This document shows, in pieces, positions 20,089-45,400 of a stretch of 64,000 nt of DNA (position 1 is its first letter; each line of letters opens with the position of its first letter). Origin of the DNA: Myxocyprinus asiaticus (taxonomy: Eukaryota > Chordata > Actinopteri > Cypriniformes > Catostomidae). A program made the translations under genes and the position numbers. The notes below the pieces were generated by a model, which worked only from the letters and a program-made list of their open reading frames with translations, was not told the origin of the DNA and did no database searches. The stretch spans positions 32,156,326 to 32,220,325 of the forward strand of contig NC_059362.1 of NCBI RefSeq assembly GCF_019703515.2, in the 5' to 3' direction.

Positions 20089-23000
20089 ATGGGTTTTTGT
20101 ACGAAATTTGCATTTATAGTATCGTGTCTATTTGTAGGATGGGCGACTATTCAAATTACAGTTGTTAAATGCTCTGTTTACCCACCGGAGATGAGTGGCG
20201 AAGGTGCACTAAAGCTTCCCACACCAGTCATTCCCATGTCACCTGTTTTCCAAGCGAACAGTTTGGGATTTTTCTACTCTCTCAGTCTTTCATCTAACTT
20301 TCCAGAGGACTTGGAGGTTAACGAACATTGCATTAAACTGTTCCGCATCTTTGGTGAACGCTACGTGATTTATGCGAACTGTCTTGTGACTTATGCACGA
20401 CCCGTCAAAATCTGTCAGAACTGTTACACTGGCTTCAACAGTCTGGAGGAAATATATACAAATATCTCATCTGACCAGGTAAGTGCTAGTTGGAAGTGGA
20501 ATTTGTTCGAATTGTCGTCATATAACGCCAAACCAGTGTTCAGTTTCAGGCCTATAGATGTTCTTACATGTTTGAAGGGTGTTTGACATAATTTCCACCG
20601 GCTGGTCACATGCACTTATGTCTCGTGATTGTGTGTGGTCTGTGTATTACAACAGGCCTGGCACAGACGACTGGACTGTGTTAGTGAGCTTAAAGCACGT
20701 TTAAAGTTGTTTTTAAATAAAATAAGGGCAATTAAAATAGTTATATATCATTGTCCTATTCTCATTGCACTATTTTTGTTAATAAAACAACAGCTATGGA
20801 AAGCTGTTGTCATGACATCACATTGTATGCTTTTTTTGTCATTGTAGACACATTTGTTTCTTGTTACTGTAAATAAGTCAGTCATGAATTACACCGGTGG
20901 CCAGACGTTTGGAATAATGTACAGATTTTGCTCTTATGGAAAGAAATTGGTACTTTTATTCACCAAAGTGGCATTCAACTGATCACAATGTATAGTCAGG
21001 ACATTAATAATGTGAAACATTACTATTACAATTTGAAAAAAAATGTTCAGAACGTCTTAAACTACTTCAAAGAGTTCTCATCAAAAAATCCTCCACATGC
21101 AGCAATGACAACTTTGCAGATTCTTGGCATTCTAGCTGTCAGTTTGTCCAGATACCTGGGTAACATTTCACCCCACGCTTCCTGTAGCACTTGCCATAGA
21201 TGTGGCTGTCTTGTCTGACACTTCTCACGCACCTTACAGTCTAGCTGATCCCACAAAAGCTCAATGGGGTTAAGATCCATAACACTCTTTTCCAATTATC
21301 TGTGGTCCAATGTCTGTTTCTTTGCTCACTCTAACCTTTTCTTTTTGTTTTTCTGTTTCAAAAGTGGCTTTTTCTTTGCAATTCTTCTCATAAGGCCTGC
21401 ACCCCGAGTCTTCTCTTTACTGTTGTACATGAAACTGGTGTTGAGCGGGTAGAATTCAATGAAGCTGTCAGCTGAGGACATGTGAGGCATCTATTTCTCA
21501 AACGAGAGACTCTGATGTACTTATCCTCTTGTTTAGGTGTACATCTGGGCTTTCCACATCTCTTTCTGTCCTTGTTGTCTTTTGTCTTTGAAGACTGTAG
21601 TGTACACCTTTGTATGAAATCTTCAGTTGTTTGGCAATTTCAAGCATTGTATAGCCTTCATTCCTCAAAACAATGATTGAGTTTCTAGAGAAAGCTGTTT
21701 CTTTTTTTGCTATTTTTGACCTAATATTGTCCCAAAGACATGCCAGTCTATTGCATACTGTGGCAACTCAAAAACAAACACAAAGACAATGTAATTATAA
21801 TAATAATTAATTAATAATAATTTAATTAATAATTTTCTTTATTTATCACACATTATACATTTGCACATATACAGTGAAATTCTTCTTTTTTCACATATCC
21901 CAGCTAGGCTGGGGTCAGAGTGCAGGATCAGCCATGATATGGCGCCCCTGGAGCAGATAGGGTCAAGGGCCCAACAGTGGCACCTTGGCGGTGCTGGGGC
22001 TTGAACCCCTGACCTTCTGATCAGTAACCCAGAGCCTTAACTGCTGAGCTACCACTGCCCCCCAATGTTAAGCTTCATTTAATGAACCAAATAGCTGTAT
22101 TTGATATAATGGCAAGTGAATTTCTAGTACCAAATTAGCAATTTAGCATGATTACTCAAGGATAAGGTGTTGGAGTGATGGCTGCTGGAAATGGGGCCTG
22201 TCTAGATTTGATCAAAAATGACTTTTTTCAAATAGTGATAGTGCTGTTTTTTACATCAGTAATGTCCTGACTATACTTTGTGATGAGTTGAATGCCATTT
22301 TCGTGAAAGTAGCAATTTCCTTCTGAAACAGCTAAATCTGTACATTATTCCAAACTTTTGGCCGCCAGTGTAATAAATACAAAAATAATTTCAGTCTGAT
22401 TATGTGTTGTCTTCATAGCCGGGTCCTGGAAATGTCAGCTGCCATGACAGCCTGATGCGTTCTGATAGGCTGATGCTGCTCTATAACCTTTACAGCAATT
22501 TAGATGAGATTTGGACATCAGCAGGATGCAAACGTAAGTAACGTGTCACAGCCTAAAATATTGTAGGTTCAGTTAGAGCTTGCATTATGATGTGTCATTG
22601 AGACCTAGAAAGAAAGAGAGTATAACTGCACAACTCAAAATATAGGATTATTTTATTAACCAATGTTTCGGCTATCAGCCATTTCCAATGTATAATTTTA
22701 TCACAATAGAAAAACAAACATACTGTATATAAAGTCAGCAATTACCAACAGGTGAAAATGATTTACATCATAATAGAATGTGTGACGGGATTACTCTCCA
22801 TGATCTGGCTGTTTTTGTGTGTGTGTGTGTGTGTGTGTTTTTTTTTGTTGTTTTTTTTTTAGTTTTAAATGTAGTTTAAAAAACTGACATGCTTGTTAGC
22901 CAATGAGAAACTTCTATTATGATGTAATCGTCTTCACCTGTTGGTAATTGCTGACTTCCAATGTGATGAAATTATACCTTGAAAAAGGCTGATAGCTGAA

Positions 23001-26000
23001 ACATTGGTTAATAAATTAGCCTTTATTTTGAGTTGTGCAGTTATACTCTTTTATTTTATTTATTTATAATTTTTGCCATTACTTGCACCTCTGAATCTAA
23101 GGTGTGCGTTTACTTAATTGTCATTTCTAAAGTGTCACTGAGACCTTACAACTGACCTTTCTAAAGTATTTTTCCTAGACCGTATTCACAGTAGTGCCAT
23201 ATTTGATTTTGGACGTGAATGAAAATGAGGCTATGAGGAATAGACATGCAGTCTCTACAATGGCATGCACTGTATGTCCTAGTTCACATCTACATTTTAA
23301 CAGCTTTTGTTTTCTGGAGTTTATTTGTAAACCAACATTTTTTGGAGAGATTTTTTTTTACTTGTTTCCTTAGTGGAATGATACAAAACACTTAAAACAG
23401 TACAGTCCATTGAAGAGACTGCAAGTCTATGCCTCACAGCTTTGAAAAAAAATAAATTGCAATTCTGTTATTCTACTAAACTTGTCATTCTAAACCCATA
23501 TCAATTTAATTCTTCTGCAGAACACATAAGGAGAATTAAAATGAATATCCCTGTCTGTCTTTTCAATACAGTGGCAGTGGATAGAGATTCACTTTCAAGC
23601 TTCATAAAGGATGCAAAAGTACTCTAAAAGTTGCCCATGCATCTTGACCTATTTGTTATATTCTGAGTCTCCTTAAGACATATGATATGGTTTTGTGAAT
23701 AAGCTTCTCTCAAGCACTCATGAACGCAAAATGAACATCAAGATTTTCACTTTTTTTTATTTTTTATTTCTCACCAAAACCTATCATATGTTATAAGAAG
23801 ACTTGGAATATGATACATGAGTTACATGGACTTCGGTTATATTATTATTATTTATTTGAATATACTAAGATATTCATTAAAATTTCTCCTTTTGTGTTCC
23901 GCATTAGAAAGAAAGTCATTTGGGTTTAGAATTTCACACGGAAAGGCACAATGAAGAAATTTGATTAGCCTTCCTGTAATGTCATGACTTATTCACTTAA
24001 AGGAATATTCTAGGTTCAGTAAAAGTTAAGCACAATCAACAGCATTTGAGGCAAAATGTTGATTAACACACAAAATAATTTCAACTCGTCCGTCCTTTTC
24101 TTTAAAAAAAAAAAAAAAGAAGCAAAAATCGAAGTTACAGTGAGGCACTTACAATGGAAATTAATGGGGCCAATTTTTGGAGGGTTTAAAGACAGAAATG
24201 TTAAGCTTATGATTTTATAAAATAACTTACATTAATTCTTCTGTTAAAACTTGCATATTATTTGAGCTGTAAAGTTGTAAAATTGGAAATAAATTTACAC
24301 AGTTATTTTATAACACTATTGTTTATGTCTTGTGGCTATACTTAGTGAGTATTTTATCGTTTACAGATTGGCCTCCATTGTAAATGCCTCACTGGAACCC
24401 AGATTTTGGCTTTGTTTTTTATAGAAAAGGAGGGACAAGTCAAAATAATTTTTATTGTAATCAATATTGTCACAAATGCTGTCGATTGAATTTAACTTGT
24501 ATTGAGCCCGGAATATTCCTTTCATTTGATTCATTTAACATGATTTTGAGAATGGTTGTTGTTGTTATATATATACACACACACATACATATATACACAC
24601 AGTTGTGCTCAAAAGTTTGCATACCCTGGCAGAAATTGTGAAATTTTGGCATTGATTTTGAAAATAGGACTGATCATGCAAAAAAAAAAAAAAAAAAAAA
24701 TTTTATTTAAGTATAGTGATTATATGACATATATATATATAACATATATATAACATAGTTGTTTGGCTCCTTTTTAAATCATAATGGTAACAGAAATCAC
24801 CCAAATGGCCCTGATCAAAAGTTTACATACCCTTGAATGTTTGGCCTTGTTACAGACACACAAGGTGACACACACAGGTTTAAATGGCAATTAAAGGTTA
24901 ATTTCCCACACCTGTGGCTTTTTAAATTGCAATTAGTGTCTGTGTATAAATAGTCAATGTGTTTGTTAGCTCTCACTTGGATGAACTGAGCAGGCTAGAT
25001 ACTGAGCTATGGGAAGCAGAAAAGAACTGTCAAAAGACCTGCGTTACAAGGTAATGGAACTTTATAAAGATGGAAAAGGATATAAAAAGATATCCAAAGC
25101 CTTGAAAATGCCAGTCAGTACTGTTCAATCACTTAAGAAGTGGAAAATTCAGGGATCTCTTGATACAAAGCCAAGGTCAGGTAGACCAAGAAAGATTTCA
25201 GCCACAACTGCCAGAAGAATTGTTCGGGATACAAAGAAAAACCCACAGGTAACCTCAGGAGAAATACAGGCTGCTCTGGAAAAAGACGGTGAGGTTGTTT
25301 CAAGGAGCACAATATGAGGATACTTGAACAAAAATGAGCTGCATGGTCGAGTTGCCAGAAAGAAGCCAATGTCACAAAAAAGCCCGGTTACAATATGCCC
25401 GACAACACCTTGACACGCCTCACAGATTCTGGCACACTGTAATTTGGAGTGACGAGATCAAAATAGAGCTTTATGGTCACAACCATAAGCGCTATGTTTG
25501 GAGAGGGGTCAACAAGTATTGTGCTCCTAGAAACAACCACACCGTCTTTTTCCAGAGCAGCCTGTATTTCTCCTGAGGTTACCTGTGGGTTTTTCTTTGT
25601 ATCCCGAACAATTCTTCTGGCAGTTGTGGCTGCAATCTTTCTTGGTCTACCTGACCTTGGCTTGGTATCAAGAGATCCCCAAATGTTCCACTTCTTAATA
25701 AGTGATTGAACAGTACTGACTGACATTTTCAAGACTTTGGATATCTCTTTATATCCTTTTCCATCTTTATAAAGTTCCATTACCTTGTTATGCAGGTCTT
25801 TTGACAGTTCTTTTCTGCTCCCCATGGCTCAGTATCTAGCCTGCTCAGTGCATCCAAGTGAGAGCTAACAAACTCATTGACTATTTATACACAGACACTA
25901 ATTGCAATTTAAAAAGCCACAGGTGTGGGAAATTAACCTTTAATTGCCATTTAAACCTGTGTGTGTCACCTTGTGTGTCTGTAACAAGGCCAAACATTCA

Positions 26001-26209
26001 AGGGTATGTAAACTTTTGATCAGGGCCATTTGGGTGATTTCTGTTATCATTATGATTTAAAAAGTAGCCAAACAACTATGTGATGATAAACGGCTTCATA
26101 TGATCACCATCCTTAAATAAAAGATTGCATTATCAGTCATGTTTTCAAAATCAAAGCCAAAATTTCACAATTTTCGAATTTCTGCCAGGGTATGCAAACT
26201 TTTGAGCAC

Positions 26210-26295
<86 letters not shown>

Positions 26296-28154
26296 TATTT
26301 ATTTATTATGCTCATTAGAATGTCTAAGTGGAGATCAACAGACTCTGTCCAATGATACCATTTACTTCATGGCTACTCTGAATAAATCACTGACCTGCTT
26401 TGAGAAATATCAGGTAACATTAAGTGACTCATCTAGACACATACAAGCTCAGTTAATTATATTGAAATCGTATGACATTGGGTATGAGAGTATCTTTCAT
26501 TTTCAATGTTTTTAAACAGGGGAACTACTCTGAATTGTGTAAAGACTGTAAAGGCTCATACAAAAGGTTAAACGAGCTCTATGGCAGCATGGAGAAAAAC
26601 CAAACACTCTGCATTGATATAGAGGATGCAGTAAGTCTTTTTGTATGCACTAATATACACAGTCCCTTCTATCTTACTCAGACACAGTCAGATTATACAT
26701 TTATGAAGCAAGAATATAGTATTGTTAATTTCATGTTTGTATTGGTATTTTGCATGAAAACCAAAAATGCTTTGCCATAGGCCAAATATTTGCAAGATCA
26801 TGAGTCAACTAAAATGCTTATACTGAATGCTGTCTGTACTTTTGTAAAGTTTTCAATAGTCAAATACTTTCAATGCAGAGACAACTTTAAACCATTTCGT
26901 AGGTTCTTTTTCTTGAAAACTTTAAACACTGTGTCTCTGTGGTGCTATAAAAATTCCTCTTTGTTTTGAGCGACAGTACAACATTGACCAATGGCGTGAG
27001 TTGCTAGCAGGACTATCTATTTGTTTGAAAACAAAGTTTATTTTTGCTATTCAATTCGGCGGCACTAGTGGTGCAGAAATTACACGCTTCAGGTTTGAGT
27101 TATTAGCCAGTTTATTATTACGATTTGGAGGTTTGTGGGAACTGTAAAATGGCACCCTCTTACACCTGTACAAACAGCTTGAAGAAGATAAAAAGAAACT
27201 AGAAGGCATTAAGCAATGAAATGCAGGAAAGAGGGACATTAATGGTTTATAACAACAAAACTATCAGAATCGTCCTACAAATCACCTTGTGTTTTTCTCA
27301 GGTAAACATGACACGGCAGTTATGGAGTAAAACGTTTGGTTGCTCATTCCCTCGTGAGGAGATTGTGCCTGTCATTGCAGTGTCCTGCTTCATGCTCTTC
27401 CTTCCCATCATCTTCTACTTAAGCAGTTTCCTGCACTCAGAACAAAAGAAACGCAAGCTCATACACCGTGAGTAACTCACCAAGCCATCCCAATTGTCCC
27501 TGCAGAGGGTTGAAGGAAAAGGGCAGAGGTGTTATACTCTGTTAATTGGTGGCAGAGTAATGAGAGTCCTCTGAATGGTTGGGCAATGTCTGCATTCTTT
27601 GTGTTTGCTGTCTGTACATTTGAAAAAATGGAATTTGTGAAATTGAAATTATGGGACCAAATCACTTACAATGGAAATGAATGGTGGCAATTTTTGGAGG
27701 GTTTAAAAATGGAAATGTGAAGCTTATAATTTTATAAAAGCACTTACATTAATTCTTCTGCTAAAATGTATTTATTATTTGAGCTGTAAAGCTGTTTATA
27801 ACTTTACAAAGAAAAGGTTAGTAAGCGATTATATCACACTAAAATCACATTAACGCGGATATTGTTTAGGTCTTGTGGCTATACTTTATTGGCCCCGTTC
27901 ACTTCCATTGTAAGTGCCTCACTGTAACCCAGATTTGTGCTTTTTTTTTTAAAGAAAATTAGAAATAAATTTTTGCAATAATCAATATTATGCCAAAAAT
28001 GCTGTCGATTGAGCGTAACTTTTATCGATCCCGGAATATTCCTTTATTGGAAAGGTTCATTTCTGACACTGCTTCCCACTCGCAAATGTACATTTGATTA
28101 GTTTAGGCTTCAGGGTCAACCACTTTCAGACAGTGCTTAACCAAGCAGCCTCAG

Positions 28155-32352: not shown

Positions 32353-34190
32353 CATAAAACCTAAGCAAAACTAATGTAAATCCATGCCCATGATCTTAGA
32401 CACTCAACTCAAGGTTATAATCCTCTTTCCTTGTCCGGGTAGTTGACATGCCCTGCAGTGTGACATTCTATATACTCCATCTAAACTATTTTTCTAATTC
32501 CTTTACTATTATTATGAATGAGCTCAAATTAATTGAAGGACTACATGCAACATTTGTACTTCAATAAATAGTCACATCACAGGACTATTTAAAAAAGAAA
32601 AGTTAAAAAATGGTGACCAGTTACAGAGCCTAAAATATACACTTTCCCTTATAAATTTACAGTATATACATTTAAACCTAAAATATGTTGATGAGAAAAG
32701 GGTCCATATACATTTTGTGTCAACTACCCATTCACTGATCTTTGAGATGTGACTGAACAATTGAAATTTGCTCTCTATTTCTTATTTGGACTGAACGCAG
32801 ATGATTGCACCACATACTTCTGAAGAAATGGCTTACACTACAATATTATGTTTAAAGATATGTCCACTTTTAGGTCACAAATGATTATGATGCATTGGGA
32901 TTTTTATGGTGCATTTAATTTGAATGGAAATAAACTTTATTGTACAAGTGGATTGTAATTTAGTGTCAACCGATGTGACTCGATTGTAAAAGTAATTATT
33001 TGTTGAATATCCATTGATAAGATCCTATCTGTTCAAGTAAACTGTAATTATCAATGGACAATCATGACCCTCTCTGTAAAACAGAATATTTTTTATAGTA
33101 TCTTTGGCCATGAAGCAAACATAATGTCACATTCTTAATTTCCCTTAAACTTGTTATAGTTGATTTTTATACAGATTTATGGCCTTACGGAGCATAACCT
33201 TTTTTTTTTTTTATTAATGTTTTGATGTGTAAATTAAGATGTGGTGTTGTGACCTACACAATTACTCCCTAAATGTTTAACTCTGTCTGATTAAAGCACA
33301 ATGGCAAGAGCATCTCTCAAGTTTGAAGTAAGCAGTCTCATCACTGTAGCTCTTATTTGCTATTTTGTACTGCCATCATTATTCAGGTCAATGGGACTGC
33401 AGAGGAAATGGCAAAGGTTATTGAAGAGGGTTTTTCAAGGTTTAAGCATGATCACTTCCTCTCATTTCTTTCTTTCTCTCTCTCTCTCATATCAGCATAA
33501 TCACTTGATTTTTTTTTTAATGGTGAGGAATTGAATAACAATTGTTTTGAATTGGCTGTTTTGAAGGCCATATTGTTACCACCTCCATGGACATACAGTA
33601 ACTCAGGAATTAGGTTAAATGTATTACTCTGGTGCCATCTATTGATGAAATATGAGACTCAGCTATTTTTGTTCATTGCTTTATGATTCAACTGACTGAC
33701 TGTAATAGACTGAGACAGATATACTTTCGTGAAGCAACTTTAAGAGGTAAAAATGTTTTTCTGGAATATTCTTGTTAATTCAAACCAGGCCCACATCCTA
33801 TTTCAAAAGTGTTAGCATCTTTACAAATGCACTTACTTTGCTGATATTAATGTATCATTTTGAGAGGGACTGCAATAACCATAAAATAATGTTTTATGTT
33901 AAAAATTATCAGAAAATTATTTGTAAATATAAACCAACCACTGGGAAATTCCAAATGCTTAATTGTAAATTAATTTTGAACAGATAATTTGATTAAAGCT
34001 CTCATTTTAAGGCAAGGGACTAGGCTTGGAAAGGTTTATGAAGAAAGTAGGCTATGTATTATAATGGGCTACTTACAACAAAAGACTTGTTATTGTGTTG
34101 TGCTTTACAATATAAATATCACAAAGAACAAATTTAGTACATGGATTTCAATGAATAAGAGTAAAAATGAAGAAAATCTGATAATTTGTT
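32353..34190. other. AT-rich intergenic DNA, no gene seen
   Basis: Mostly AT-rich unique sequence. A 77-codon frame at 33301-33534 includes a (CT)n-derived stretch and is judged spurious. Confidence 0.5.
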
Positions 34191-34464
34191 AAAAGAATAG
34201 TTCACCCAAAAATGGAAATTCTCTCATCATTTACTCACCCTCATGCCATCCCAGATGTGTATAACTTTCTGTCTCCTGCTGAACAGAAATGAAGATTTTT
34301 AGAAGAATATCTCAGCTCTGTAGGTCCATACAATGCAAGTGAATGGTGAACAAAATTTAAATCTCCAAAATCACATAAAGACAGCATTAAAGTAATCCAT
34401 AAAGCTGCAGTGGTTAATTCCATATCTTTAGAAGCATTATGATAGGTAAAACAGATCAGTATTT

Positions 34465-35010
34465 AAAGGAATAGTTCACCCAAAAATGAAAATTCTCTCA
34501 TTATTCACTTACGCTGATGCCATCCTAGATGTGTATGACTGTCTTCAGCAGAACACAAATGAAGATTTTTAGAAGAAGATAGAGCTCTGTCAGGTCTTTA
34601 TAATAGAAGTACATGGGTGCCAGCACTTTGACGGTCCAAAAGTCATATTTAGGCAGCATAAAAGTAATCCATGCGACTCCAGTCGATCAATGAGTATCTT
34701 CTGAAGCGAATCGATAGGTTTACGTAAGAAACAAGTCGATAATTAAAACGCTTTTAACTTTAAGTTTAAGACATTCATTGATCAACTGGAGTTGTGTGGA
34801 TTACTTTATTTCTGCCTTAATATGACTTTTGGACCATCAAAGTGCTGGCACCTGTGTACTTCTATTATAAGGACCTGACAGAGCTCTATCGTCTTCTAAA
34901 AATCTTAATTTGTGTTCTGCTGAAGAAAGACAGATATACACATCTGGGATGGCATCAGTGTAAGTGAATAATAAGAGAAGTTTCATTTTTGGGTGAACTA
35001 TTCCTTTAAG
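34465..35010. mobile_element. Complete inner copy of the GTTCACCCAAAAATG palindrome
   Basis: Left AAAGGAATAGTTCACCCAAA and right TTTGGGTGAACTATTCCTTT are perfect inverses. Arms of about 200 bases include GGTGCCAGCACTTTGACGGTCC and its inverse near 34840. Confidence 0.9.
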
Positions 35011-35377
35011 TCCTTTTTTACTATAAATCTCCACTTTCACTTTCACGTTCTTCTTTTGTTTTGGGCGATTCACATTCTTTGTGTGTATCGCCACCTACTG
35101 GGCAGGGAGGAGAATTTATAGTATAAAAAGGACTTAAATATTGATCTGTTTCTCACCCACACCATCATATTGCTTCTGAAGATCTGGGGTGCGTTCCATT
35201 CCAAAGGCCTCATCCCTATGCCCTAAATCCTTCAGAGGGTTTACCCTCCAGAGTGAGAGCTTCGGAGGGTTGAAGGGTGTAGGGCTAAAAAATATTGGTA
35301 ATTCGGAACGCACTTCAGCGTTGTCTATCCAAACCAAAGGAGCTGCTGCCGTTGCACAAAGGCTGATGCTAATGAAC

Positions 35378-35540
35378 ATGATAGGAAGCTGTTGTGTGTG
35401 ACAGAAGCAAGTAATTGTTGCGTATTAGATGGAAACGATGTCCAGCGATGTCATTGGCTGTAGTGAAAGTCGTACAAATTCATACGAGGGCAGTCGTACA
35501 ATATCATATCCTTACGATTTCGCCATGAGAGTGTGTTGTG
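35378..35540. repeat. Repeat copy without the SINE (empty site)
   Basis: Matches 12720-12757 and 13021-13150 across the point where SINE copy A is inserted. Here AGAAGCAAGTAATTGTTGCG runs on without interruption to ATTAGATGGAAACGATG. Confidence 0.75.
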
Positions 35541-36335
35541 ATGTTATATGCTTTTGTTAATAGAAAGAGATTGCAGTTGCAGCTGGTTTAATTTACACTA
35601 AATTACACCTGGCAAAACTGCCAGATTTGTGACATACACCAGTTTCGGTCCACTTGGCAGTGAAGTGTCCATCTGTTGAACCCTACGGAAACACCCGTTT
35701 CGAAGGGTCCTTCAAAGCAGCTATTTATTAGCCCTTCGGTTTGGAACAACCCTTCAACATGGCAGCCAAAATTGTTCCCTCTTCGAAGTGCCCTTCGGAG
35801 GTGGATTTATCGCGTTTGGAACGCAGGGATAAATTTAACCACTGGAGTCGTGTGGATTACTTTAATGCTGCCTTTATGTGCTTTTGGAGCTTCAAAATTT
35901 TGGTCACCATTCACTTGCATTGTAAGGAAGTACAGATCTGAAATGTACTTCTAAAAATCTTTGTGTTCAGCTGAAGAAAGAAAGTCATACACATCTGGGA
36001 TAGCATGAGGGTGAGTAAATGAAGAGAGAAGGGTCTAAAAGGGTCTGTATTTAAAATATTTATTTACTTATTGACTTTAATATAAGGCTATAAACATTAT
36101 CATACATGGGCCTACCTACACAATAAAAACATTATAAAATTTAAAAATGGACAGCACATTTATGCTAAAAGGTATAAATAACAAATGTGGGAGACAAGCT
36201 GGCATATTACATTATCTCTGTGACAAACCAGTTCACAACTGGAAAAAAGAATCACATTGGAGGGAAAAGTCGATCTAGCAAATATGAGCGTTTTGCCACA
36301 AGAAGGCGACATTTCGAAACTCTGAGTCCGGAAAC

Positions 36336-37883
36336 ATGGCGCTGGAAACATGTATTGCTTTTTTATTAGCAGACAGTTACGATATTGACGATTTTTTAAT
36401 TCTCAAGAAAAATGCATTTCGTAAACGCCGGAAAGCCAGGTGAATAAAAACTCTTCATCATCTCATAATGATGCCACCGCCTCGTTCGTGTTCATGCTGC
36501 GTTGTTTACACACCTTACAATAATTATGCTTGGTAACCTGCTGCAGCGCGTGGTTGTTGTTTTACTATTGGATATATTCCTGTTACCAGTAAAGTATCTT
36601 ATACATATTATATTAATTTGTATTCCTATAGAATGAAGCAGAAAGTTGAACAGACTGACAAATTGCAAAGGTAAGATGATCCACAGTCTTTAGAAATTAT
36701 GCTGTGTAGACAATGTTTATAATGAAGCTGTCTGTTTCACATATCAGAGGTGATGGCGAAAGACACATTTTCAATACAGTGCTACACAGCCTGTCGATCT
36801 GTGAGTTTAAGAGTCACTTTCAGTTGACACCAACCCAAACTGAGGTACTTGTTCTTCTTACAGGTATCTCATTTGTTAAAAGTATCAGAAATCAAGAGAT
36901 TATTGATTATAAATCAAGTTGTTCTTTTCCTTTTCTTGTAGGAGTTGGTACGACTGCTGACACCCTGTAAATGGACTGCTATTAGGCAGGAGGGATGGAC
37001 AGTGTGGCATGCAGTTCTTGCTAGTCTTTGGACTCTGTCGACCCAGGAGTCTTACCAAAGCGTAGCATGCCGCTTCCACGTCACAGAGTCACTCATTCGT
37101 GAACAGCTGGATGAATTCTGCACCCTTGTTACCAGCAACTTGGCTAACGCAATTCACTGGCCCCAGGGGGAGGAAGCAGAAATGTCTGTGGCCGGGTTCT
37201 TTTCCACTGTGGGGTTACCAGACACTCTCTGTGTAGTAGGAACCGGTTTCATTCCTATTGAAAAACCCACCGATGTGCCAGACCCAGAGGTTTATAAAGA
37301 TGCAGGGCAGTCCTACTCTGTCAAACTCATGGCTTTTTGTGACCACAGGGGTTGTTTTACCTATGTGACAGCACAACACCCTAGAAACTGGCATAACTCA
37401 AGGGTCCTGTTAGCCACAGAGGTTGGCAAAGCACTGCAGGAAGACCCAGTGGCACTGCTACATGGCAAACACATCGTAGGTGATTCCACCTTCCCACTTT
37501 CAGAGCACTTTCTTACCCCGTTCCCTGATCATGGAACACTAGGACAGAAAAAGGTGTGTTATAACCAGAAAGTGCACGCAGCTCTTACAGTGGTACAAGG
37601 CTCCATCCATAATCTGAGGTCTTGCTTTCAAAGGATTAAATGTCTGCAGAAGCATTCCATATGCCAAACCAGTACAGCCGTCGAGGCCTGCTGTATTCTC
37701 CACAGCATGTTCCTAGAAACCTATAATGTGCCAGTGGACTGCATGGAGGATGACGTAACCCAAGAACCTTTCCATGAACTACCCTATGGGCACTCTGGAA
37801 GTCTTGGTGGAATATCTAAAAGACAAGACATTGCAGCCTCACTTGGACGAAGCACTAAAAAAAGGAAATATATGTACAAGTAA
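36336..37883 (+). CDS. HARBI1-like protein, transposase-derived, probably domesticated
   Basis: Four coding exons join in frame: 36336-36439, 36632-36670, 36748-36844 and 36942-37883 (393 aa), all GT/AG. The protein follows the PIF/Harbinger transposase plan (DDE_Tnp_4 type). It has an N-terminal helical region in exons 3-4 (LTPTQTEELVRLL, then ESYQSVACRFHVTESLI) and an RNase H-like core from about residue 170. Core motifs include GFIPIEKP, FCDHRG (D214) and a GDSTFPL block (D261). The first catalytic Asp position is Gly180 and the final Glu position is Gln299, so nuclease activity is unlikely. The C-terminus is basic (KKRKYMYK). No terminal inverted repeats or Myb-like partner gene were seen nearby. 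It sits alone between ostm1 and sec63, same strand. Function unknown. A recently dead transposon is less likely given 393 uninterrupted codons. Confidence 0.85.
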
Positions 37884-38125
37884 ATATTTATTTGAAATTG
37901 AAGCTGTGGCATTATCACACGAGGTTGCATTTGATAATGTTTGGGAAAATATCCTATCTTAGATCATACTTTATTGGTTTAACATCATAAAAATGTCTTA
38001 TATGTAGGCTAAATAAGGCAAAAAGCACAAAAATATATTTATTTTAATGTATGCATTAACACTGCAAAACCATGCATGTACTATGCTGGAGTGAAGTGTT
38101 TTTGCAAATTTTGCCTAATTGCAAG

Positions 38126-38131
38126 ATTAAA
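38126..38131 (+). terminator. Candidate polyadenylation signal of the HARBI1-like gene
   Basis: ATTAAA lies about 240 bases after the stop and is followed by T-rich sequence. Confidence 0.35.
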
Positions 38132-38139
38132 AAGGACAG

Positions 38140-39479
38140 CTAACTTTTTGTTTAATCTCTGTAAGTATTTAAAGGGGTTGACTACAAAATATTTATAGTG
38201 TTTGTTCTTGTGAATTACACAACGTCAAGAATCTACTTCATACTTTTTTTGTTGCTTTTTTTATTTTTTTTATTGTAAACAGACCAATACAATAACAATC
38301 AGCATAAAACAGCAAAATTGTCACAAGAAGACTATTAAGAAATAACAGATACCAGATAAGTGACCTGGACATATAAATTAAAGCAATACAAATATAGTAA
38401 TTTATTCATCAACTGATGTAGAGATTGAAAGCAGAGCAAATTAAGTACAAATAGTGGCAAAGCAATTACTACCATAAAGCGCATGCGTAGAACACGTACA
38501 CTCCTCTGAAACGGCGCACAGATTTTTCGTGTTTCAGGCCTACGCAATACTAGAGATCTTATATATAAACATAAAAACCTCGGCGTTTTTAACCAAAGGA
38601 GAGAGCATACCGGTCAACTAGCATGTTACGACAGTTAGTCACCGTTTGCGGATACCATACAATCGAATAGGTAATGCCGTAAACTGACACCTACCTGTCG
38701 CAAAATTGTCCACGTCTTCTCTTACGTGAGAACCGTAGTAAACACCACACATGGTTTATTCCAAAGGGATTTTTAGTTCAGAACATGTTGAAGATTACCG
38801 GACAGACTGTCATTTCATTAAATGATGAGCTGTTTCCTCACAAAAGCAGTTTAGTCAGCACACTGAAATATCTCCCCCATAGACATCCATCCAAAAAACG
38901 GTCTCTGGTCTCCTCACCGATGTACCGCCATAGAATGTCCATGGTACCGCTGCGTTAAGGGCTCTGGTAATACCTAAACCAGCAAGCTGAGAGGCGTTAT
39001 TAAATCACCAAAATAAAAGTCACTGACAATATTCGCGAAATACAAGCATATTCCACTGTGTAAATGGGTTGTAAATCCATTCTTTCGAAAATTTTCCAAT
39101 TTAATTGAATTATGTTTTACGTACAATATACACAGAAAGTTGTATTGCCTGTGTTTCGTGAGTGACGGCACTATTTTCGAGCATATAAATATATATTCCC
39201 GCTGCACATTTGATGACGAGGGGTAAAAGAAAAAGTGAACAAATCGGTCATAATGCTATAAAATAGTAAACAATTCTGATCCATGATGCTTTTCAGGCAG
39301 TTGATGTATTAGTCACAATAAAAATAATCGAGACTTTTATTTTGAAAGCGATTGCTATCCGTGGCAGAAAATGCGTGGCCGCTGGCTTCATTCTCCCGCA
39401 TATGTGAATAGTCCAACAGAGAAGAGACTGTTAGGGTGGTAAAGCGGCAGAAAATATCGGGGTTTAGTGCCGCTGCGAA
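38140..39479. promoter_or_regulatory. Intergenic DNA and sec63 upstream region
   Basis: No gene-like frame on +. CG dinucleotides rise toward sec63, and the 100 bases before its ATG (GCGGCAG, GTGCCGCTGCG) look like a TATA-less housekeeping promoter. A 34-codon minus-strand frame starting at 38942 has a strong initiation context but no recognised product. Confidence 0.4.
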
Positions 39480-42400
39480 ATGGCTGGACAGCAGTTTCAG
39501 TACGACAACAGTGGCAACACGTTTTTCTATTTCCTCACGTCATTTGTGGGACTAATAGTCATCCCAGCCACCTATTACCTCTGGCCCCGGGATCAGAATG
39601 CGGGTAAGGCCCCATATGCTATTGCACGACCAGCTAACCAGTTACCTTGATCTGTTCTAATAGCCAGATTGTCACCCCTGTGAGGAGCGTTTGTTGACGT
39701 TTGATAACTGATTTTTAACAAAATGAGGGTCTGCTGTAAATTCAGTGATGGCTCGTTAAATTGTTGATATGTAGCATTAGCAGCTGACCCCCACTCAGTT
39801 AAACTACACTAAAGGGAATCAGTATTTTGTAATATTATTAATGGATCATGCTGATACGATGTTTGCACGAGTATTTCTTATGCTGACGCTTATTTGTGGT
39901 CCTGTACAGTTATAGAGCATCGTTATCTGGAGAGCTGAACTTCAGCCTGTCATGCAGCTCCAAGCAAACAGCATCATACAAGAGCTTTCAAAGTGTCTCA
40001 CATGTTAAGGAGTAGGTCCATAAAAAGAAATGTATATTAGAGACACATCTTCTTAATTTATATAACCCCGGACGCCACCCCCAAAAGCATAATTATACCA
40101 GCCTGTTGGAGATGGTGTGGTATTTGATGCAACTTAAGAAATACAGTGTGTCTAAAATTAAAGTAGCAGTTACAGACATCTGTGGGCAACAATTGTTTTA
40201 TATACACTCACTAAGCACTTTATTAGGAACACCTGTACATCTACTTATTCATGCAATTATCTAATCAGCCAATCATGTGGCAGGAGTGCAGTGCATAAAG
40301 TCATGCAGATATGGGTCAGGAGCTTCAGTTAATTTTCACATCAACCATCGTGGAGGGGGATGTGATCTCAGTGATTTCGACCGTGGCATGATTGTTGGTG
40401 CCAGATGGGCTAGTTTGAGTATTTCTGTAGCTGCTGATCTCTTGGGATTTTCACACACAACAGTCTCTAGAATTTACTCAGAATGGTGGCAAAAAATAAA
40501 TCATCCAGGGATGATCAGGGGTGGCAGTTCTTTGGATGGAAACGCCTTGTTGATGAGAGCGGTCAACGGAGAATGGCCAGACTGGTTCGAGCTGACAGAA
40601 AGGCTACAGTAACTCAGATAACCACTCTGTACAATTGTAGAGAGCAGAATAGCATCTCAGAATGCACAACAGGTCAAACCTTGAGGCGGATGGGCTACAA
40701 CAGCAGAAGACCATGTCTGGCACTTTATTAGGACCATAGTGTTCCTAATAAAGTTCTTAGTGAGTGTATAAATCCCTTTAGATAGTTTAAGAGATGGTTT
40801 TATTGTACAAAGATTCCCCCTGTCTTTTCCGTGTCTGTTATACAACAATAGTGTTTTTGGCACACTTGCAAACAGCTTGTGTAATATGGCGCGCAATGTA
40901 AGAGGGGCACACAGGAATCTGAATGTGAGTTCAGATTTAAAAAAAATCAAATGCCTTGAGGTTGCTTACCCAACTCACAAAATGTACCATGGTTCTTCAA
41001 TGAGTATTTAGACATGGTAATACTGACACCGTTGTTGCACATGTTCTGTGATTACCATGACATGAATATGGTAATCACTGGGTATCATAGTATAAAAGTA
41101 GCATAGTATTGCCATCTGATAACCATTGTGCCATGGTAGCACCACAGTGCTTTTTTTTTTTTTTTTGTGAGTGGCCTTATGTTTGCATGGTGGATGTGAA
41201 CCAGGTGGCAAAACATTGCCAATTTTCTGACTGTTGTCTGTTATGTAAATTTTTTCACAGAGCAATTACGGTTGAAGAGTTTACGAAGAGTTCATGGAAG
41301 ATGTCTGTGGTATCGCCTTCGGCTTATGAAATCACAGCAGAGCATTGTTCCAACACTTAAGTGAGTGATTGTGTTTGCATGTGATTACTGTTAAGAGCGT
41401 TTCAGTGATATTAATCCCAACTTGCTTGTGTTGCCTGCCAGTACTTTTTAACATACTGCAGAAAGGTTTTTTTTGCAGTTTTTACGCATTTAGTGTTATC
41501 ATTAATAAATCTGGGTAGTTACTGCTTGTTCTGTAACTTTGTGTATATAGCGTTAAATCTACCTCTTATTTTTATTCTCCTGTGTCATTTTAGAAAAGCA
41601 GCCCTGTTGTTTGGGTGGGCAGTATTTCTTTTACTGGCCTATAAGGTGTCTAAATTAGATCGTGAGTACCAGGAATATAACCCCTATGAGGTCCTCAACC
41701 TGGACGCAGTAAGGACAAAATTCTTTCTTCCCCTTTTGATAATCTCATTCTTAATCTAATCTTTAAAATACTTCCTTTTAAGATTTATAGATCTATTATA
41801 TCTCTGTCTAGGGAGCATCTGTTGCTGAGATTAAGAAGCAATACAGAGTGCTGTCTTTAAAACACCATCCTGATAAAGGTGGAGATGAGGCCATGTTCAT
41901 GAAGCTTGCTAAAGCTTACTCAGCGTAAGAATGTTTTCATCACCCATTTTATTAATTGTTGCTGCCTAAATGTAATGCTATGTTATTTATAGTAATTGAA
42001 ACTTAGTTTTCATTATGCAGTGTGGAATGGGGGTGGGGTTTGGGGGAAACGACACGACACAATACAGTTCTTCAAAGCTTTTCATAAAAACATCATCCAC
42101 TGTGGCAGAATTAAAGACTAAACCTTTCTATAGCTTGTCAGTATTGTGCAGCAATTAACGATCAATGGTTTTGACATTTTTGTAATTATGTCCACATTGA
42201 TCATTTTTCACAGTTTGACTAATGAGGAATCCCGGAAAAATTGGGAGACTTATGGCAACCCTGATGGCCCAAGAGGTGAGGTGCCTTAACCTTTTAGCTT
42301 ACATCCTAAAGACTCCGATATTCTTCCGGAGAAGTTCTTCTTTGTTCTTTGTTCAGGGGTAAAAAGAAGTTTAAAACAGCCGAGCAACGGTATACTGTTT

Positions 42401-45400
42401 GTAAACATTCAGACACCCGCCACACTACTGTGGAAGGCATTTAGAGGAGCATTTAAATATGAGGACGCTCAGTAAAACCTTAACTAATGTTACATTAAAA
42501 TGCGTTTTCAATGACTTTATGCCTCATTCTATGAGTAGAATTCACATGAGGTTAGTGGTGCACCGATCAGGAAATTTGAGGCCGATACCGATCACCGATG
42601 TTTTTTTTTTTTTTTTCAACACTAAGATTGGCCAATACTGATACTGCTTTAAAAAAAAAAAAAAAACAAGTGCCCTTTGCCACACTTTTACAAGTTACAG
42701 TTGTGCTCAAAAGTTTGCATACCCTTGGAGAATTGGTAATATATGTACCATTTTTAAAGAAACCATGAGCAGGCAAAACACATTTCTTTTATTTCTTATG
42801 GGATTCATATTCAACTGTAGGTTATAACAGAATGGCACAATCATAAAACAAAACATGGCAACAAAGAAAAAAATGAAATGACCCCTGTTCAAAAGTCTGC
42901 ATACCCTTAGTTCTTAATACTGTGTATTGCCCCCTTTAGCATCAGTGACAGTGTGCAATCTTTTGTAATAGTTGTCTATGAGGCCCCAAATTCTTGCAGG
43001 TTGTATAGCTGCCCATTCGTCTTGGCAAAATGCCTCCAGGTCATGCAAAGTCTTTGGTCGTCTTGCATGAACCGCACGTTTGAGATCTCCCCAGAGTGGC
43101 TCAATGATATTATGGTCAGGAGACTGTGATGGCCACTCCAGAATCTTCACCTTTCTCTGCTGTAACCACTGGAGGGTCAACTTGACCTTGTGCTTAGGGT
43201 CATTGTCGTGCTGGAAAGTCCAAGAGCATCCCATGCGCTGCTTTCGTGCAGAAGAATGCAAATTGTCTGCCAGTATTTTCTGATAACATGCTGCATTCAT
43301 CTTGCCATCAATTTTCACAAGATTCCCTGTGCCTTTAGAGCTCACACACCCCCAAAACATCAGTGAACACCAGCATGCTTCACAGTGGGGATGGTATTCT
43401 TTTCACTATAGGCCTTGTTGTCCCCTCTTCAGACATAGCGCTTATGGTTGTGACCATAAAGCTCTATTTTGGTCTCGTCACTCCAAATTACAGTGTGCCA
43501 GAAGCTGTGAGGCGTGTCAAGGTGTTGTCGGGCATATTGTAACCGGGCTTTTTTGTGGCATTGGCGCAGTAAAGGCTTCTTTCTGGCAACTCGACCATGC
43601 AGCTCATTTTTGTTCAAGTATCGTTGTATTGTGCTCCTTGAAACAACCACACCGTCTTTTTTCCAGAGCAGCCTGTATTTCTCCTGAGGTTACCTGTGGG
43701 TTTTTCTTTGTATCCCGAACAATTCTTCTGGCAGTTGTGGCTGAAAACTTTCTTGGTCTACCTGACCTTGGCTTGGTATCAAGAGATCCCCGAATTTTCC
43801 ACTTCTTAATAAGTGATTGAACAGTACTGACTGGCATTTTCAAGGCTTTGGATATATTTTTATATCCTTTTCCATCTTTATAAAGTTCCATTACCTTGTT
43901 ACGCAGGTCTTTTGACAGTTCCACGTGAGAACTAACAAACTTATTGACTATTTATACACAGACACTAATTGCAATTTTAAAAGCCACAGGTGTGGGAAAT
44001 TAACCTTTAATTGCCATTTAAACCTGTGTGTGTCACCTTGTGTGTCTGTAACAAGGCCAAACATTCAAGGGTATGTAAACTTTTGATCAGGGCCATTTGG
44101 GTGATTTCTGTTATCATTATGATTTAAAAAGGAGCCAAACAACTATGTGATAATAAATGGTTTCGTATGATCACTATCCTTAAATAAAAGAGTTTTTTTT
44201 GCATGATCAGTCTTATTTTCAAAATCAATGCCAAAATTTCACAATTTCTGCCAGGGTATGCAAACTTTTGAGCACAACTGTATATTCTGCAGTTATGTTT
44301 ATGCCCCACACAGTAAAATTACATTAATTGTGAATTGCTAACATTTATTGGTATTGAAAACAGTTATGAATAGTGCTGTTGTCCATATCAAAGGTCATTG
44401 TGACATACTGGCCACCAATAAAAAACCTTGAGGGCATCACACACAGCAGAGATACGTTCAAAAATAAGAAAGTTGTCTATTACTAGCTCCAAAACTGCTT
44501 TATTTTTATTATTTTCAATAAAAAAAATGTTTACCGCCTTTGGCATTTTGTTGCGATACAAATCACTAATTAATAAGCAAATGCGTGAATGCGTGGTGCC
44601 GTTATATAAGGTTAAACAGTTATATCGCTTATTATTTAGTGGCATTGCGACCAACATCAGTCTGATTTAAATTGGGATGCTCAATTAAATTGGGAATAGC
44701 GCTGAGATGAGTGACTGATGAGATATTGAGAGCACCTGGAGAGCGTGGGTTCAGTTGGTTGTTTAATTGACACCGAGAGTGCTCATGTTGAAGGGGGAGA
44801 GGCTAATAGTGCTCATGATCGCTCAAACAGTCTCTATCGCTCCACACACACATCAGATTGTCATGACTCACGTTACATCACGTATACTCAGATTTGCATT
44901 TGCTTGTTTATTTTTTGTTTAATTTGTTTTTATGCCCGTTTGCAGTCTCTCTATCCACTCCGTGCTCACTGTGCAGTGAGTCAGAATAACTAATGTGTTG
45001 ACTCTAGATATTGGTCAGCTTAATATTCATACACGTTATTCTTACACGTTTTAAAACAAACCGGCATATTTGTCTAAATTACAGCATGTCTGAAAGTTTA
45101 AATTCGTAAATGCTTAGAATTGCCCCCAACTCGCCCTCCAGTGGCCACACTGTATGCTTCAAGGGCTGAGCAGGCGCTCATTCATTAGAGTAGCAATGCA
45201 TGTGTGCTACAAAAAAGATCTACCCTGAATCTAGGCATGATCAGCCGATCGCGATCATGGATTTAAGATGAAAATCAGCCTATTTAGATCAGTGGCCGAT
45301 TGATCGTGCACCCCTACATGAGGTCAGTAAAAGATGCTTTTTCTAACCACTCGATGCGCCGATTGCACTCTGTTTTTGTAATTTATGATCACACTGATAC

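Follow-up and report, generated by a model that had tools for sequence, protein, structure and literature searches.

A PIF/Harbinger transposase-derived gene of ray-finned fishes with a broken catalytic triad, located between ostm1 and sec63 in Myxocyprinus asiaticus

The window, a stretch of 64,000 nucleotides on C19 of Myxocyprinus asiaticus, contains a gene of four exons at 36336-37883 on the forward strand. Each junction has a GT donor and an AG acceptor, and the spliced exons form one open frame of 393 codons that ends in TAA. The features of the locus are as follows.

20191..27466, + strand: ostm1, the upstream neighbour, located by tblastn with the Labeo OSTM1 fusion protein P0008 and by PF09777
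36336..36439, + strand: exon 1, start codon at 36336, GT donor, in-frame join; identity to the public protein P0001
36632..36670, + strand: exon 2, phase 2 introns on either side, AG and GT borders, in-frame join
36748..36844, + strand: exon 3, AG and GT borders, in-frame join
36845..36941, + strand: intron 3, phase 0, between TQTE and ELVRLL; acceptor site common to relic copies on C6 and C29
36942..37883, + strand: exon 4, with the helical region, the predicted RNase H-like core and the C-terminal motif; stop codon at 37881-37883
37239..37241, + strand: codon 180, Gly, where DDE transposases have the first catalytic Asp (alignment, position from the exons)
37482..37484, + strand: codon 261, Asp, the second catalytic position, kept (alignment, position from the exons)
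37596..37598, + strand: codon 299, Gln, where DDE transposases have Glu (alignment, position from the exons)
37767..37847, + strand: codons 356-382, C-terminal motif PFHELP..GHSGSLGGISKRQDIAASLG, conservation 0.90 in ray-fin against 0.42 in transposase rows
39480..39605, + strand: first exon of the downstream neighbour, an open frame 97.6% conserved on C25

The translated protein is identical at 393 of 393 residues to a public Myxocyprinus asiaticus record, "uncharacterized protein si:ch73-257c13.2" (P0001). The gene is therefore already annotated but lacks a proper name, and a literature search under this name returned no paper on it. The identical record and the splice borders confirm the four exons and 393 codons of the preliminary description, which was made from the sequence alone. 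The placement between ostm1 and sec63 given there also holds. The exon pieces of ostm1 (20191-20481, 22422-22535, 26318-26413, 26517-26639 and about 27293-27466) lie on the same strand as the gene. The frame starting at 39480 is taken to be the start of sec63 by recognition of the protein; a Pfam scan of this frame named no family. Full-length frames of relatives are found on contigs of only 1,304 bases (P0009) and 1,586 bases (P0006), which from their size fit spliced transcripts; the "lgn" label on relatives' contigs presumably denotes assembled sequencing runs. Just upstream of the gene, at 34189-36030, are nested long inverted repeats, the remains of a palindromic element, with for instance arms at 34536-34700 and 34768-34932 that are 89% complementary. 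Pieces of Tc1-type transposases (Pfam HTH_SB and DDE_3) are present in separate frames at 25006-25828 and 42917-43951 of the window.

Judged by its sequence, the window protein is a relative of PIF/Harbinger transposases, as had been proposed. PF13359 (DDE_Tnp_4) matches residues 184-334 with an E-value of 3.8e-21 and 75.8 bits (cut-off 24.8), and the same family matches all 30 rows of an alignment of relatives. The match lies in exon 4, an open stretch of 313 codons. A structure model built from 13 sequences reached a pLDDT of 43.5, and a later model 81.5. A sequence search of the protein against solved structures gave 0 matches, and in a Foldseek search with the predicted model none of the solved structures reached E 0.001. 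In the BFVD fold search there were four matches at E 0.001 or better, all named as transposases of giant viruses; a scan of viral contigs for relatives gave 21 pattern matches and 0 true relatives.

The catalytic residues are not those of an active transposase: in place of the DDE triad, the window protein has G-D-Q. From the alignment, the triad is broken in 38 of 38 ray-fin rows, while it is kept in 25 of 26 transposase rows. The first Asp is replaced in all 37 ray-fin rows that have a letter there (36 Gly, one Ser), 35 of 38 rows retain the second Asp, and the Glu is replaced in 36 of 37, the sole keeper being the reedfish, which lacks both Asp. Most fish rows read G-D-Q or G-D-R. The broken triad, overlooked in the preliminary description, is the strongest single sign in these sequences of a changed function. 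It could be argued that substitute acidic residues leave some nuclease activity, as the second Asp is so often retained and gar and bowfin have Asp at the Glu position. However, all 37 rows with a letter at the first position have Gly or Ser there, and 34 of 37 carry Gln, Arg, Lys or His in place of the Glu; we consider residual activity very improbable.

Protein searches for relatives returned 44, 45 and 71 sequences, the last set with E-values up to 1e-8 and the 7,998 best-sharing candidates scored. Named relatives with at least 46% identity come from carps, loaches, suckers, characins, catfishes, electric fishes, eels, tarpon, bonefish, bowfin and gar. The frame is also kept in Xyrauchen, whose protein P0002 is 92% identical. 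The reedfish protein P0046 shares 51% identity with gar and 39% with the window protein. Further away are the crab Portunus P0048 and the decapod-type P0050, P0052 and P0053 (41-43% identical to gar), a copy from Oryzias melastigma (P0054, 37% identical to gar) that has an intact DDE triad, and other transposases at 21-30%. Two of the relatives' records, P0017 and P0038, carry the name "putative nuclease HARBI1". Beyond the Oryzias transposase copy, protein searches requiring shared 5-residue words found no relative of the gene in tetrapods, sharks or euteleosts; this absence is weak evidence, since the search needs such shared words.

In the tree without the transposon relics described below, the ray-fin rows including reedfish form one clade (support 100/99), the decapod-type clade adjoins it (88/86) and P0054 falls outside. 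When the C29 relic fragment, which is 35% filled, is added, the gar, bowfin, eel and otophysan rows are still grouped (97/99), with no resolved order among the reedfish, the relic, the decapod type and the rest. A grouping of the Oryzias copy with the fish gene, tested against the decapod-type clade, has a p-AU of 0.09. The preliminary description had suggested a fish-specific gene; ray-fin is the more fitting term, and there are related sequences of decapod type. As for its position in other species, synteny outside Myxocyprinus asiaticus comes from a single fused gene model of Labeo. In this Labeo rohita record (P0008), the annotated protein is OSTM1 fused to the Harbinger-derived protein, which is either a gene-model error or read-through of co-oriented neighbours.

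Within the genome, the window protein was searched against 2.34 Gb in 345 contigs, giving 57 match rows from 105 of 204 candidates scored. Seven of these rows belong to the window gene on C19 and one locus on C25, at 74-95% identity; the remaining 50 are at 22-41%. Among the match rows scored, identity above 70% is thus found only at C19 and C25, and not in the many near-identical copies that the preliminary description had named as an argument against domestication. On C25 the locus is flanked by ostm1 pieces and, on its opposite side, by the sec63 start, and we therefore take it to be the duplicate from the catostomid genome duplication, which is described for Myxocyprinus asiaticus in the cited part of PMC8412299.

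The C25 copy (C25:15651169-15652322) is a pseudogene with four in-register stops, five frameshifting and two in-frame indels, and intact splice dinucleotides. Between the C19 and C25 copies dN is 0.091, dS 0.238 and the pairwise omega 0.385 (386 of 393 codons; seven with gaps or stops were dropped). This value alone was rejected as proof of constraint, since the three exon pieces of C25 ostm1, without stops in 129 codons, give a dS of 0.127 and an omega of 0.34 against C19. Polarised changes were therefore used instead: the 73 amino-acid differences were assigned with eight outgroup proteins under a strict and a weak rule. Under the strict rule 47 changes are assigned, 37 on C25 and 10 on C19 (binomial p 1e-4); the weak rule adds 10 on C25 and eight on C19, leaving eight undecided. 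If silent change is split evenly, the omega implied by these protein outgroups is 0.16-0.21 on C19 and 0.55-0.60 on C25. The gene pair has diverged more at silent sites than have the ostm1 pieces or sec63 exon 1 (dS 0.164, 42 codons, no stops). With the ostm1 silent rate the omega on C19 becomes 0.31-0.40, and with that of sec63 exon 1 0.24-0.31, still below 1. By this comparison of sequences, the window copy appears to be under purifying selection.

The dead copy on C25 could also suggest that the gene is decaying and that both copies will be lost. Loss may be tolerated, since beyond the Oryzias transposase copy there is no euteleost record of the gene in the 5-residue-word searches. Nevertheless, the window branch has fewer protein changes than the dead copy and the frame is kept in Xyrauchen, so that ongoing decay seems to us a very unlikely fate.

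Chance is excluded as the explanation for an intact frame over such distances. In a neutral simulation down to 47% protein identity, the level to gar, none of 200 runs stayed open and the mean number of stops was 10.8; down to 92% identity, 31 of 200 runs were still open. This result is softened by the fact that public protein models are selected for being open. A transposase copy that is intact by chance, or a recent insertion, could be suggested by the abundance of Harbinger-type sequences in the genome, where 144 match rows are obtained with the Oryzias P0054, and there is an imperfect AT-rich inverted pair bracketing the gene (36049-36069 and 37878-37898, 18 of 21 bases). However, the flanks contain no terminal inverted repeats of an active Harbinger transposon above chance, in agreement with the earlier claim. 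Between 36031-36335 and 37884-39479 no exact inverted match is longer than 11 nt, a length reached in 68 of 300 shuffles. The best inverted score between the flanks is equalled by 5 of 60 shuffles, one arm of the imperfect pair overlaps the stop codon, and there is no target duplication outside it (outer three bases TGT against TGA). Since the homeolog on C25 occupies the corresponding position, gar and bowfin have relatives, and the triad is broken in every ray-fin row, an intact transposon or recent insertion was rejected; we give it next to no chance.

The domestication proposed in the preliminary description is instead supported by the occurrence of the gene as one copy plus its homeolog, by the location of that homeolog between the same two genes, by the different fates of the two copies, one decayed and one constrained, and by the frame kept in many ray-fins. 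We conclude that the gene is almost certainly a ray-fin host gene, derived from a PIF/Harbinger transposase and fixed between ostm1 and sec63.

The genome also contains relics of a sister Harbinger transposon, in three decayed copies at C6:50715884-50719765, C29:20765568-20768888 and C1 about 17249550-17250750. The C29 locus is 42% identical to gar and the C6 locus 24-50% in pieces. C6 and C29 have in common a collinear unit of about 3.3 kb that is 84-95% identical, and the 60 kb around each locus shows no further collinear match; the C1 copy is partial and 85-91% identical. Their transposase frames are broken, and the DDE residues that can be read are all three in C29, the first two in C6 and the last two in C1. 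In C6 and C29 a Myb-like frame (PF13837) runs convergently on the other strand, with 27.5 bits in C6 (cut-off 27) and 23.3 bits, below the cut-off, in C29. A transposase together with a Myb-like frame is the two-gene plan of Harbinger elements. At the low ends of both copies TAA is followed by GGGCATGT, and this TAA fits a target duplication, although an unproven one; the far terminal repeat was searched for in the relic element and not found. The relic DNA has no match in the window, while three short pieces of 47-108 bases match the C25 neighbourhood. With the Myb-like domain of the relic as the tblastn query, there was no match in the window (E up to 1) or in the C25 pieces.

In both C6 and C29 an acceptor lies directly before the codon that matches the start of exon 4. 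As it is at the same site, intron 3 probably predates the domestication. Splicing was therefore rejected as proof of domestication, and more generally some caution is needed, as the introns of a transposase-derived gene can come from the transposon.

Constraint along the protein was compared as mean conservation in 21 of the 38 ray-fin rows and in 25 transposase rows. At the first motif it is 0.74 in ray-fins against 0.84 in transposases, at the second 0.84 against 0.79 and at the third 0.71 against 0.83. Residues 267-276 reach 0.96 against 0.59, and the C-terminal motif has the values listed above. In these alignments a region close to the C terminus now appears to be under the strongest constraint in ray-fins. 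The lower conservation at the first and third motifs is the more secure part of this result, because the transposase set as a whole varies more. Residues 14-62 are basic in sucker and bream (P0001, P0003), nearly neutral in loaches, and acidic in both characins and catfishes.

We suggest that the protein no longer cuts DNA and would act as a nuclear adaptor, not as a nuclease. A partner could be held by the N-terminal helical region and the predicted RNase H-like fold; the analogy with the HARBI1-NAIF1 and ALP1-ALP2 pairs would make it a Myb/SANT-like or chromatin protein. The conserved C-terminal motif may be a second contact surface. The mechanism in these details is proposed tentatively, at a little short of an even chance. 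The explanation as a whole is considered likely.

A different role would be that of a decoy restraining related Harbinger transposons. Such a protein would bind the ends of the element or its Myb-like protein, be unable to cut, and so compete with an active transposase. A kept domain and predicted fold with lost nuclease residues would suit it, as would the sister-transposon relics with DDE residues in the same genome, two of them with the Myb-like frame. On the other hand, the searches turned up just three decayed copies of the sister element, and transposases show weak conservation in the C-terminal stretch where the fish gene is most constrained. The decoy is therefore unlikely, and the adaptor is preferred.

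Several known systems resemble the adaptor. ADF-1L, presumably a fish gene, is also a PIF/Harbinger-derived host gene. It differs, in the available part of its description, in having a MADF domain and in deriving from the partner gene and not from the transposase (PMC11893794). HARBI1, a vertebrate domesticated Harbinger transposase with the partner NAIF1 (PMC9710019, as far as the cited part goes), has the same type of origin as the fish gene and is likewise a vertebrate host gene. However, as far as the rows compared go, the fish family is a different lineage, separated from generic HARBI-type rows with 100/100 support and long branches; canonical HARBI1 was not identified among these rows. 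In the sections cited, ALP1 of Arabidopsis reads DGA at the DDE positions and is an accessory of PRC2 (PMC4671723), and both HDP1 and ALP1 have lost DDE and still bind Myb-derived partners (PMC7282668). They are, like the fish protein, domesticated Harbinger nucleases that lost DDE residues. Both are plant genes, however, and ALP1 keeps the first Asp and loses the other two, whereas in the fish protein it is the first and third residues that are gone. Among insects, Drosophila DPLG7, Anopheles APLG1 and APLG2, and Lepidoptera LPLG2 are given in the cited part of PMC9710019 as syntenic, constrained and transposase-derived. The fish gene shares this pattern; all four insect genes were, according to the same part, co-domesticated with a MADF gene, while the tblastn search with the relic's Myb-like domain found no such neighbour at the fish gene. 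The nearest relatives with DDE residues are the C1, C6 and C29 relics and the Oryzias P0054. The C6 and C29 relics share the intron 3 site with the gene and also carry a Myb-like frame; unlike the gene, the relics are broken transposon copies at scattered places.

The gene would add an old and widely kept case to the few vertebrate genes from Harbinger transposons, of which Harbi1 and Naif1 are named in the cited part of PMC5741667. The locus also comes with internal controls, namely an intact and a decayed homeolog of one duplication and sister-transposon relics that keep catalytic residues. The loss of nuclease activity can therefore be ordered, and it can be asked what a dead transposase is for. 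Names of the si:ch73 type belong to the zebrafish nomenclature, and a knockout test should therefore be within reach.

The catalytic Glu is absent from the decapod-type P0048, P0050, P0052 and P0053, with D-D-S or D-D-T in three of these four rows; they may represent a second, separate domestication. It can be speculated from the sequences that one Harbinger lineage was domesticated twice, in ray-fins before the split of gar and teleosts (perhaps before that of the reedfish) and in decapod-type animals. The nuclease would then have been disabled at different residues each time, and what remained would be an adaptor with its constraint shifted to a new C-terminal motif. We regard this scenario as possible, though with the balance somewhat against it. 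Elsewhere in the Myxocyprinus asiaticus genome, Harbinger-like matches at C41:25245415, C11:37269412, C5:32183829 and C27:4702939 are 30-32% identical to P0054; their open frames span 264-357 aa, and two of the four contain no stops. These are possibly other transposase-derived genes.
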